From assembly GCA_022564935.1 (NCBI GenBank), contig JADFKM010000045.1, positions 1 to 17,110 of the forward strand: a stretch of DNA of 17,110 bases. The letters are read 5' to 3'. Below the pieces are notes generated by a model. The model searched no databases. It was not told where the DNA came from and saw only the letters and a list, made by a program, of their open reading frames with translations. Source of the DNA: Candidatus Dadabacteria bacterium (lineage in GTDB: Bacteria; Desulfobacterota_D; UBA1144; Nemesobacterales; JADFKM01). Positions 4,815 through 15,525 of the stretch are shown here, one piece after another. Every line of letters starts with the position of its first letter. Positions within the stretch are counted from its first letter, which is position 1. The position numbers and the translations under genes are program-made.

Positions 4815-5570
4815 ATGTCTGGTCATTCTAAATGGTCTAATATAAAGCACCGCAAGGCGGCCGTTGACGCTAAGAGGGGGAAAATTTTTACGAAGATAAT
4901 CCGCGAGCTCAACGTCGCCGCCAGGAAGGACGGGGGAGACCCGGAAACGAACCCCGCTTTGAGGGCTGCTATAACCAACGCCAAGAACAATAACATGCCT
5001 AACGATACGATCGAGCGTGCGATTAAGCGCGGAACGGGCGAGATAGGAGCCGATGATTTCCAGGAAATTACCTACGAGGGATACGGCCCCGGCGGAAGCG
5101 CGGTGCTCGTGAGGATACTTACCGATAATAGGAACCGCACCGTCTCAGAGGTGAGGCGCATATTTACGAAATTCGGCGGGAACCTCGGAGAGAGCGGCTG
5201 TGTCGCATGGATGTTTGAGATGAAGGGGAAGATTGCATTCGATAAAGAGAGCACCGATGAGGACCAGCTCTTCGAGGCGGCCCTCGAAGCCGGGGCAGAT
5301 GACGTCAAGACCGAAGGGGATGAGATTGAGGTCATAACCGACCCCGGCAATTTCGACGCTGTTAAGAACTCAATCGAAGAAGCCGGCTTTAAGCCCTCCT
5401 TTTCGGAAGTGACCATGATACCCAAGAACACCACGAAGGTAGAGGGCAAGGAAGCCGAGCAGATGCTCAAGCTCATGGAAGCCCTTGACGACAGCGACGA
5501 CGTTCAGAACGTTTATTCCAATTTCGACATTCCCGACGAGATTTTTGAAATGCTGGAGGCCCAAGGATAG
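4815..5570 (+). CDS. yebC: YebC/PmpR/TACO1-family protein
   Basis: The 251-residue product begins with the family signature [20 protein letters not shown], and then shows [26 protein letters not shown] and the TDNRNRT segment. The length is normal for the family. Members have been described as DNA-binding regulators and, more recently, as ribosome-associated factors that relieve translational stalling at proline-rich stretches. The sequence cannot decide between these roles. It heads a cluster with ruvC-ruvA-ruvB, a common arrangement in bacteria. Its TAG stop (5568-5570) overlaps the probable AUA start of ruvC, which implies translational coupling. The start is well supported by GAGGTG eight bases upstream. 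Confidence 0.96.
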
Positions 5571-6121
5571 CAGGAATTAGGGTACTCGGAGTCGACCCGG
5601 GCTCTGTGGTGTGCGGTTACGGCATTATAGAAGATACGGGGGACGGCCTCGTACATATTGAAAGCGGTACCATAGACGTTCCCCGCGCCCTTTTGCTCCC
5701 GCCAAAACTTAAGACCATATTCGATGGCCTGAGAGTCGTGATAGAGCGCTCCCGGCCTACCTGTATGTCCATAGAGAATGTGTTTTTTGCCCGCAACGCC
5801 CGAAGCTCCCTTAAGCTTGGAGAGGCAAGAGGGGTGGCCATACTGGCGGCTGCTATGTTCGAGCTTCCCGTTTACGAATACGCTCCCACCCAGGTCAAGC
5901 TCGCCGTAACCGGAAAGGGCAGGGCCAATAAGACCGAGGTCGGGAAGATCCTCACTATCTTGTTCAACCGGGAGGGTTGGGAAAAGACAGACGCCTCGGA
6001 TGCAGTAGCGATAGCGGTTTGCCACATCCACATGCAGGAGACAAAAAACCTCCTCGGCGGACACACGATACGCTCTCGTGGAAGGAGGCGCCGGTTCAGG
6101 GCAAATGATTTCCCTTCTTAA
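5567..6121 (+). CDS. ruvC: Crossover junction endodeoxyribonuclease RuvC (non-AUG start)
   Basis: RuvC cuts Holliday junctions symmetrically as a dimer, on junctions held by RuvAB. The RNase H-like fold is complete only if translation begins upstream of the first GTG (5606). The frame reads [12 protein letters not shown] before that GTG and contains the first catalytic Asp. Between the in-frame TGA at 5546 and this segment there is no ATG, GTG or TTG. The candidate starts are ATA (5567), with GGAGG (5555-5559) seven bases upstream and an ATAG overlap with the yebC stop, or ATT (5576), which would give [10 protein letters not shown], with AAGGA eight bases upstream. Numbered from 5567 (184 residues), the acidic tetrad is D10, E70 ([10 protein letters not shown]), D142 and D145 ([13 protein letters not shown]), with spacing matching E. 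coli D7/E66/D138/D141. The gene is the second of the cluster and overlaps ruvA by 17 nt. Confidence 0.93.
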
Positions 6122-6692
6122 AGGAACCATAGCGGATAAATCCCTCGGCGTCGTGGTGATAGATGTGAGTGGCGTCGGGTACGGGGTCACTGTGCCGCTT
6201 TCTACCTACTACCGCTTGGGCGGCAAGGGAACGTTGACGGAGCTAAAAATCCATACGCACATGAAAGACGGCTCCATCGAGCTTTTCGGTTTCCTCACCG
6301 ACGAAGAGAGGGAGCTTTTCAACCTCTTGATTGGCGTCTCGGGCATCGGGCCGAAGGCTGCGACCAACATCCTCTCGAACATCTCTCCCCGCGACCTGGT
6401 CTCAGCCATAACGTCAGGCGAGCTGAGGAAGAAAAAAGTCCCGGGTATAGGCCCGAAGACCGCCGCGCGGCTGATTACGGAGCTTAAGGACAAGGTGCCC
6501 TTGCTTGAGCATGCCGGGGAAGCCGGTGGCCGGAGGGGAATCGTCGAAGACGTCGTGTCCGCCCTCCTTAACCTGGGCTACAAGAGGGCCGAGGTAGACA
6601 GGCGCATCGACGAGATAGAGCGTGTAAGCTCAAGCGGCGCTGATTTGGAAACGGCGCTCAGGGAGTCGCTCAAGATAATGAGGAACGTATGA
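6105..6692 (+). CDS. ruvA: Holliday junction branch-migration protein RuvA
   Basis: RuvA tetramers clamp the four-way junction and recruit the RuvB motor. The ATG at 6105 is preferred because the family begins M-I-x-x-L-x-G; a GTG at 6078 would add nine unusual residues. From this start the protein has 195 residues. Domain I (about 1-63) is the OB fold, ending LFGFLTDEERELF. Two helix-hairpin-helix motifs follow: LIGVSGIGPKAA (75-86) and KKVPGIGPKTAARL (110-123). A variable linker (about 131-144) precedes domain III (about 145-195), which contacts RuvB: EDVVSALLNLGYK. The gene overlaps the end of ruvC by 17 nt, so the two are probably translationally coupled. Confidence 0.95.
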   Translation: MISLLKGTIADKSLGVVVIDVSGVGYGVTVPLSTYYRLGGKGTLTELKIHTHMKDGSIELFGFLTDEERELFNLLIGVSGIGPKAATNILSNISPRDLVSAITSGELRKKKVPGIGPKTAARLITELKDKVPLLEHAGEAGGRRGIVEDVVSALLNLGYKRAEVDRRIDEIERVSSSGADLETALRESLKIMRNV

Positions 6693-6779: not shown

Positions 6780-7805
6780 GTGACTGAAGATAGAGTCGTT
6801 AACCCAATCCCTAGTGAAGAGGACTCATTACTCGACGCCAATCTCAGGCCAAGGCGCCTGGACGAGTACCTCGGCCAGAGCAAGGTCAAGGAAAAGATAG
6901 GGATATTCATGGAGGCCGCAAAGAAGAGGTCGGAGGCGCTCGACCACGTGCTCCTCTACGGCCCCCCCGGACTCGGCAAGACCACCCTTTCGCACATCGT
7001 GGCGAACGAGCTCGAAGTAAAGATACACGCCACCTCCGGCCCCATTCTCGAGCGGGTCGCGGACCTCGCCTCGATCCTCACCCACCTCGATGAGAGGGAC
7101 GTGCTGTTCATAGACGAGATTCACCGCCTCAACCGCACGATGGAGGAGTACCTCTACTCCGCCATGGAGGAGTATAAGATAGACATCATGATAGGTGAGG
7201 GCCCCACCGCCCGCTCGATGAAGGTCAAGCTGAACAGGTTCACACTCATCGGAGCCACCACGCGCACCGGCCTGCTCACCTCGCCCCTTCGCTCCCGCTT
7301 CGGCGTAGACCTGAGGCTCGACTACTACAGCCCCGATGAGCTCAAGGCCATCATACTGCGCTCGGCGGGCATTCTGGGGATTGAGGTGACCGATGACGGC
7401 GCAGTCGCCCTCGCGCGCTGCTCGCGGGGCACGGCGAGGGTCGCCAACAGGCTGCTCAAGCGTACGAGGGACTATGCGGAGGTGAAGGCCGACGGGGTCA
7501 TCAGCACCGAGGTGGCGAACGACGCCCTCGAGCTGCTCGAAGTGGACGCAAGCGGCCTCGACAACCTGGACAGGGCGATTCTGGCCAACATCATCGAGAA
7601 GTACAACGGCGGCCCCGTGGGCATTGAGACTATTGCGGCCACCGTGAGCGAAGAAAAGGACACCATTGAGGACGTCTACGAGCCGTTTTTGATACGCGAG
7701 GGGTTCCTCATCAAAACCCCGCGCGGCAGAACCGTTACCCCCCTAGCATACTCCCACCTCGGCTACCCTCCTCCCATCCGGCAGCCGGAGCTTTTTAAGG
7801 AGTGA
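6780..7805 (+). CDS. ruvB: Holliday junction DNA helicase RuvB
   Basis: This AAA+ motor drives branch migration with RuvA. The 341-residue product is full length. It contains [12 protein letters not shown] (22-32), Walker [10 protein letters not shown] (61-69, K67), Walker B VLFIDEIH (D112, E113), sensor 1 [20 protein letters not shown] (157-174) including the arginine-finger region, a sensor 2 region near [12 protein letters not shown], and the C-terminal winged helix ([24 protein letters not shown], then TPRGR). Translation is assigned to a GTG at 6780, which lacks an obvious Shine-Dalgarno sequence; no better in-frame start precedes LLDANLRP. It is separated from ruvA by 87 nt holding a strong hairpin. 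By eye its third-codon positions are richer in G/C than those of tolQRA or argS. Confidence 0.96.
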
Positions 7806-13833: not shown

Positions 13834-15525
13834 ATGATAGCGGAAATAAAAAACGCTGTGGCCCAGGCGGTAGAGTGCGTCAGAAGAAAATCAAATATAT
13901 CTTCAGTTCCCGAAAACTTATTCGTTGAGGTCCAGATCCCAAAGAATAGAGAGTTCGGGGACTATTCCACCAATGTGGCCATGATCTTGGCCCGACCTTT
14001 GCAAAAGAGCCCGCGGGAAGTGGCCGCTATCATCATCGACAACCTCTCGCAAAACCATAGGGCTCTATTCAAGAGCATAGAGATCAAGGGGCCAGGGTTT
14101 ATCAATTTCTTTGTGCATGAAGCGGTTATCACATCGAAGCTGGCAGACATCTACAATTCAGCTGAAAGCTTCGGCCGCTCGACCGCAGGTCGGGGGGAAA
14201 AGGTGCTGCTTGAGTTCGTGAGCGCAAATCCCACAGGAGCACTCCACATGGGTCATGCAAGAAACGCCGCCGTGGGGGACGCGCTTGCCCGAATACTCCG
14301 GGCGGTGGGTTACGACGTGACCACGGAATACTACATCAACGACGCCGGGAGACAGGTGGATATGCTCGGGCGCTCGGTTTTTGAGCGCTATAAGGAGTCC
14401 TTCGGATTGGATGCCCGTATGCCACAGGACGGTTACTACGGCGAGTATATAAAGTCCATTGCCGGAGAGATAAGATCTATAAAAGGCGACGAGCTCCTCT
14501 CGGAGGGGAGCGATGAAAAAGATTCGATTCGGTATTGCGCGGGGTTTGCGAAACAAGCGCTGCTTGAGCAGATAAAGGGGGAGCTTGAAGAGTTAGGAGT
14601 AGGGTTTGACAACTGGTACAGCGAAGAGGCCGAGCTTCACTCAGGAGACGGAGCGGATGGTATTTCACTAAAGGTAAAGTCGGTAATCGGGGAGCTTGAA
14701 GACCGCGGAGCGTTATACAAAAAAGACGGCGCCCTGTGGTTCAGAGCCACAGAGTATGGTGACTCCCAGGACTGGGTTCTCGTTAAGAGCGACGGCACAG
14801 GAACCTATTTCCTCAACGATATAGCCTATCACGGGGACAAGCTCGGCAGGGGTGCGCTCAGGCTTATAAACATATGGGGAGCAGACCATCACGGCCACGT
14901 TAAGAGGCTTAAATCCGCCCTCAAGGCGCTTGGTTTTGAGGATTCGATGCTTGAGGTTGTTTTGATCCAGTTCGTACGACTTATGAGGGACGGCGTGGAA
15001 GTAAAGATGTCTAAGAGGGCGGGAAACTATGTTACTATGAGCGAGGTCGTTGAAGAAGTCGGCAGTGATGTGGCGCGTTTTTTTCTCCTTATGCGGGGCA
15101 CCGACAGCCACTTGGACTTTGACCTGGAGCTGGCCAAAAGGGAGTCCGCCGAAAACCCCGTGTTCTATATTCAGTACGCCAACGCACGGATCAGGAGCGT
15201 GTTCAAGAAGGCTGAAGCCGCAGGGATTTCCCCTTCCCCGGATCATTTGGAGCTGCTCACTCTACCGCTTGAGATAGAGATAACTAAGAAGCTGCTTATG
15301 TTCCCCGATGCATTGCGTGAGAGCGCCGAGTTGCTTTCTCCCCATAAAATTGTATTTTATTTACAAGATATTGCATCGGATTTCCATGTTTATTACAATA
15401 AAAATAGAATAATCGGTGATGACCACACGCTTAGTCAAACAAGGCTTTTCTTTGCTGAGTGCATCAGGGCGGTTGTCCGGAACGGTCTGGGTTTGCTGGG
15501 TGTATCGATACCGGAAAGGATGTGA
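13834..15525 (+). CDS. argS: Arginyl-tRNA synthetase
   Basis: This class I aminoacyl-tRNA synthetase charges tRNA-Arg. The 563-residue product is full length. It has the N-terminal Arg-tRNA recognition domain (about 1-100, ending KGPGFINFFV), the catalytic signature SANPTGALHMGHARN with HMGH at 138-141 (the family form of HIGH), INDAGRQ, the WGADHHGH segment, and KMSKR at 391-395. Many bacterial ArgS proteins lack a canonical KMSKS, so this one is relatively conventional. The alpha-helical DALR anticodon-binding domain fills about 445-563. The ATG at 13834 gives the expected N-terminus but has no Shine-Dalgarno sequence in the upstream T-rich leader. The downstream SPOR gene starts three bases after the stop. 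Confidence 0.97.
   Translation: MIAEIKNAVAQAVECVRRKSNISSVPENLFVEVQIPKNREFGDYSTNVAMILARPLQKSPREVAAIIIDNLSQNHRALFKSIEIKGPGFINFFVHEAVITSKLADIYNSAESFGRSTAGRGEKVLLEFVSANPTGALHMGHARNAAVGDALARILRAVGYDVTTEYYINDAGRQVDMLGRSVFERYKESFGLDARMPQDGYYGEYIKSIAGEIRSIKGDELLSEGSDEKDSIRYCAGFAKQALLEQIKGELEELGVGFDNWYSEEAELHSGDGADGISLKVKSVIGELEDRGALYKKDGALWFRATEYGDSQDWVLVKSDGTGTYFLNDIAYHGDKLGRGALRLINIWGADHHGHVKRLKSALKALGFEDSMLEVVLIQFVRLMRDGVEVKMSKRAGNYVTMSEVVEEVGSDVARFFLLMRGTDSHLDFDLELAKRESAENPVFYIQYANARIRSVFKKAEAAGISPSPDHLELLTLPLEIEITKKLLMFPDALRESAELLSPHKIVFYLQDIASDFHVYYNKNRIIGDDHTLSQTRLFFAECIRAVVRNGLGLLGVSIPERM

Follow-up and report, generated by a model that had tools for sequence, protein, structure and literature searches.

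The yebC–ruvC–ruvA–ruvB locus and the ruvC reading frame

The window (the whole stretch of DNA analysed, 17,110 nucleotides) came from a 2.0-Mb draft genome (104 contigs, 88.6% complete) of a Candidatus Dadabacteria order of 43 genomes. The genes around the junction under study all lay on the forward strand: yebC (4815–5570; YebC/PmpR family; NCBIfam NF001030, E = 2.1e-110; Pfam PF01709 and PF20772) with the 3′ end CAA GGA TAG, ruvC taken from ATT to TAA (5576–6121; Pfam PF02075, E = 2.6e-44; acidic residues invariant), ruvA overlapping the 3′ end of ruvC (6105–6692; assigned from the ORF list and the family profile), and ruvB (6780–7805; named from its ORF sequence and its place in the operon).

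The ruvC frame was bounded upstream by an in-frame TGA (5546–5548) and was open from 5549: codons AAT GCT GGA GGC CCA AGG led to ATA (5567–5569), GCA GGA to ATT (5576–5578), and AGG GTA CTC GGA GTC to GAC (5594–5596), which encoded the first catalytic Asp of RuvC and was followed by CCG GGC TCT and then GTG GTG, beginning with the GTG at 5606–5608. Direct reading of the frame found no ATG, GTG, or TTG between TGA 5546–5548 and GTG 5606. The sequence from 5546 to 5608 thus bore out the claim of an earlier sequence-only reading that no standard start keeps the catalytic Asp, and ruvC was confirmed as a gene without any ATG, GTG, or TTG giving a functional protein; the positions that this reading had assigned to GGAGG, ATA, and ATT were likewise all correct, including the overlap of ATA with the yebC TAG at 5568–5570. 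Because GAC 5594–5596 precedes GTG 5606, a gene caller restricted to standard starts would yield a product without the catalytic Asp, as had been predicted, and the ORF list indeed gave a 171-aa product from GTG 5606 that lacked it.

With the upstream residues included, the translated frame matched all 148 of the 148 positions of the Pfam RuvC model PF02075 (model 1–148; 151.2 bits versus a curated cut-off of 22.2), and NCBIfam ruvC TIGR00228 agreed with the RuvC assignment. Residues D10, E70, D142, and D145 (numbered from ATA), which we take to be catalytic from knowledge of E. coli RuvC, were invariant in RuvC protein alignment A1, and this set of four acidic residues was complete if translation began upstream of 5594. 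The upstream residues RVLGVDPGS were conserved in the protein alignment, and the intact window RuvC shared 56–59% identity over its full length with RuvC of family f4 and 59% identity with that of Candidatus Dadabacteria relative L071. The frame encodes a complete and probably active RuvC Holliday-junction resolvase.

GTG 5606, the earliest standard start in the frame, would leave a shortened RuvC without catalytic activity, or else a decaying gene, which is very improbable: translation from there covered only model positions 10–148, so that nine model positions and the first catalytic Asp were lost, the residues thereby removed included the conserved RVLGVDPGS, and GTG 5606 had a weak local Shine-Dalgarno match when normal spacing was required (−2.5 kcal/mol).

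The ruvC frame also lay at −1 relative to yebC, and since it was open from 5549, a −1 frameshift near the yebC end would join the two as a YebC–RuvC fusion. Such a fusion is barely credible, yebC and ruvC being separate genes in the relatives; it was rejected on finding neither an XXXYYYZ slippery heptamer in 5549–5570 nor any unusual RNA structure predicted at the junction (z −0.05).

Comparison of the yebC–ruvC junction with relatives

The window genome was the sole member of its family (f1) among the 43 genomes of the order compared. The yebC–ruvC junction was read in 39 order-mate loci, which resembled the window in yebC–ruvC gene order, in a ruvC start adjoining the yebC stop, and in the same protein, but differed in the start itself: the codon homologous to ATT 5576 was ATG in 25 of the 39, GTG in one (L040), and ACC in the remaining 13, all of genus g6. 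A five-base gap separated the yebC TAG (5568–5570) from ATT 5576 in the window; exactly five bases likewise separated the yebC stop from the ruvC ATG in L003, L004, L005, and L008 of family f4, while L006 and L007 of the same family had stop and start overlapping as ATGA instead. The shared five-base spacing, together with the protein alignment, identified ATT as the positional descendant of ATG. Within the order, a near-cognate start was not a conserved feature of the junction, one of the outcomes that the sequence-only reading had proposed to distinguish by alignment with relatives; nor did the relatives display a conserved standard start elsewhere in the frame, the ATG of most of them occupying the very position of ATT.

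In the 13 loci of genus g6 (L026–L036, L038, and L039), a TTG overlapping the yebC end was found six codons upstream of ACC (TTGGATAA), and an ATG was also present three codons downstream. With ACC at the homologous codon and standard codons on both sides, the ruvC start of this genus has probably moved, either to the upstream TTG or to the downstream ATG, with TTG favoured.

The comparison was also extended to 129 ruvC loci from many phyla, a set biased by its collection, in that one of two peptide patterns required M or I at the start position: 103 had ATG at the homologous codon, and the window alone of the 129 lacked a standard start both at the catalytic motif and upstream of it. The 128 others each had at least one in frame, so the lack of one in the window is not a chance feature of such loci. 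Two loci from Betaproteobacteria MAGs (L087 and L096) carried ATT at the homologous codon and had their only standard start 17–35 codons upstream; these may be additional near-cognate starts or proteins extended at the N-terminus. As a separate observation, 13 of the 14 genomes (G043–G056, about 1 Mb) of same-class family f8 gave no RuvC match by protein or by Pfam profile, G051 alone having one.

The occurrence of ATG in all nearest relatives (family f4) is also what would be expected if the true codon were ATG and the T at 5578 came from a mistake in the consensus or assembly, or from a rare variant. The window is known from a single draft assembly, and the searches run gave no independent sequence of the species: genome contigs searched with the window RuvC protein yielded no match, a protein alignment search returned other species only, the exact window DNA pattern had 0 matches in viral contigs, and the order's genomes contained no second member of family f1. 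Against an error, the sequence and genes elsewhere in the 17-kb window look normal, consensus errors at start codons should be very rare by our own estimate, S. aureus has several genes per genome with natural AUU/AUA starts (PMC13009471), and the Shine-Dalgarno match was unusually strong for ruvC in the order, though this could be chance. An erroneous or variant base is on balance unlikely.

Near-cognate candidates ATT and ATA and the infC start

Two Shine-Dalgarno-like motifs preceded the candidate codons: (i) GGAGG (5555–5559; −9.3 kcal/mol), spaced 7 nt from ATA 5567 and 16 nt from ATT 5576, and (ii) the weaker AAGGA (5563–5567; −5.2 kcal/mol), located 8 nt before ATT 5576, these duplex energies assuming a canonical anti-Shine-Dalgarno from which the host's own 16S end may differ. 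A match of GGAGG strength was found in 2.7% of random coding 14-mers and, at the same offset, in 12 of 284 gene 3′ ends (4%). A match as strong as AAGGA or better was found in 22% of random coding 14-mers, which makes AAGGA weak evidence. The sites before the homologous ruvC codon in the 39 order-mates ranged from −0.1 to −5.1 kcal/mol, all weaker than the window GGAGG.

If ribosomes initiated at AUA 5567, which shares bases with the yebC stop (AUAG) and is served by GGAGG 7 nt upstream, the ruvC start would have shifted upstream once its ATG was lost. Such a start is a serious rival because ATA has the better ribosome-binding site, at normal spacing and stronger than any at the homologous starts of the order-mates; in addition, the ruvC start of genus g6 appears likewise to have shifted upstream into the yebC end (as TTG), and infC of the same genome reads GGAGGG...ATA GCT. 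ATA 5567 is, however, a by-product of the yebC Gly-stop (GGATAG) and does not occupy the ancestral start position; the same Gly-stop ATA occurred in most of family f4 alongside a proper ATG, and in L002 an in-frame TAG intervened between this ATA and the ruvC ATG, so the presence of ATA is by itself no evidence of a start. The relatives favour ATT 5576, because it occupies the homologous ATG position, and initiation at AUA may be held as a possible but clearly less probable account.

The homologous infC start was ATA in 20 of 20 loci (window genome plus 19 order-mates; L051–L070), mostly preceded by GGAGG or a similar motif, and 13 of the 20 had no standard start upstream of ATA. In the window genome (L069, G000:C3), a GTG lay five codons upstream, so AUA is assigned there by homology. 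A conserved AUA start for infC, encoding IF3, is likely in this Candidatus Dadabacteria order, and gene callers would miss it.

The start usage of the genome was surveyed by comparing about 574 kb of the window genome (29%) with 800 kb of an order-mate, antisense shadow frames being removed and two adjacent L200 frames resembling a broken regulator gene being set aside. Among about 184 sense pairs reaching the N-terminus, ruvC was the only one without a usable standard start on inspection; near-cognate starts are therefore exceptional rather than general in the window genome. The L200 frames (14008–15200, forward strand) corresponded to a sigma-54-type response regulator seemingly split over two frames, as by frameshift or decay.

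Proposed AUU start of ruvC and its significance

The preferred reading, given a probability of about 0.55, is that ruvC really starts at AUU 5576, a codon descended from ATG, with its translation coupled to that of yebC. An ancestral ruvC ATG would have changed to ATT (5576–5578) in the window lineage; ribosomes terminating yebC at TAG 5568–5570 would start again with fMet-tRNA at the AUU five bases further on, aided by the adjacent upstream AAGGA and/or GGAGG; and full-length RuvC would be made at a reduced level. AUU as the actual initiation codon, its coupling to yebC, the reduced yield, and sensitivity to IF3 are inferences; ATT was present in one genome only, a fragmented draft of 104 contigs, and ATA had the clearly better Shine-Dalgarno match. 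The proposal of a near-cognate start that keeps the Asp thus stands as the best reading, now with ATT placed before ATA by homologous position and with a base error retained as an unlikely alternative.

Near-cognate starts are documented in S. aureus, with AUA at infC, ccpN, and citZ, AUU at cvfC1, and extended Shine-Dalgarno pairing at infC, ccpN, and cvfC1, so naming infC and its AUU as the known case was too narrow (PMC13009471). In reporters, ccpN, citZ, and cvfC1 reached about 10% of the AUG level, and ccpN as much as 30% in rich medium (PMC13009471). At the first two codon bases, IF3 accepts Watson-Crick pairs only; at base three it is more permissive, yet it excludes the weaker pairs there (PMC10158994). 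A ruvC start at AUU or AUA would belong to the same kind as the S. aureus cases: ccpN (AUA), citZ (AUA), and cvfC1 (AUU) are non-infC genes with AUA/AUU starts and reduced yield, and the near-cognate start of citZ is limited to one lineage, as is the ruvC ATT. The S. aureus starts, however, were demonstrated by ribosome profiling and reporters, whereas the window ruvC is known from its sequence. The literature search found no relevant report of a ruvC AUU start.

Compared to infC of the E. coli and S. aureus type, the window ruvC shared a near-cognate start differing from AUG at the third base only and a strong Shine-Dalgarno-like site nearby, but the infC start was conserved across the order while the ruvC ATT was confined to one genome. 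The E. coli infC start is autoregulatory; RuvC is not known to exert feedback on initiation. That an infC-like near-cognate start (AUU/AUA with a strong Shine-Dalgarno) governs the resolvase level, placing Holliday-junction resolution under IF3-dependent translational control, is doubtful. The near-cognate ruvC start was not conserved within the order, where the window genome was the only representative of its family, and because it was confined to one assembly, the suggestion that such starts are usually regulatory found no support for ruvC.

If the start is real, a housekeeping DNA-repair gene would be added to the few bacterial genes that begin with AUU or AUA, in a case where gene callers limited to ATG, GTG, and TTG would truncate an active site. 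Together with the apparently conserved AUA of infC in Candidatus Dadabacteria, ruvC would then provide two test cases of near-cognate initiation outside model organisms.
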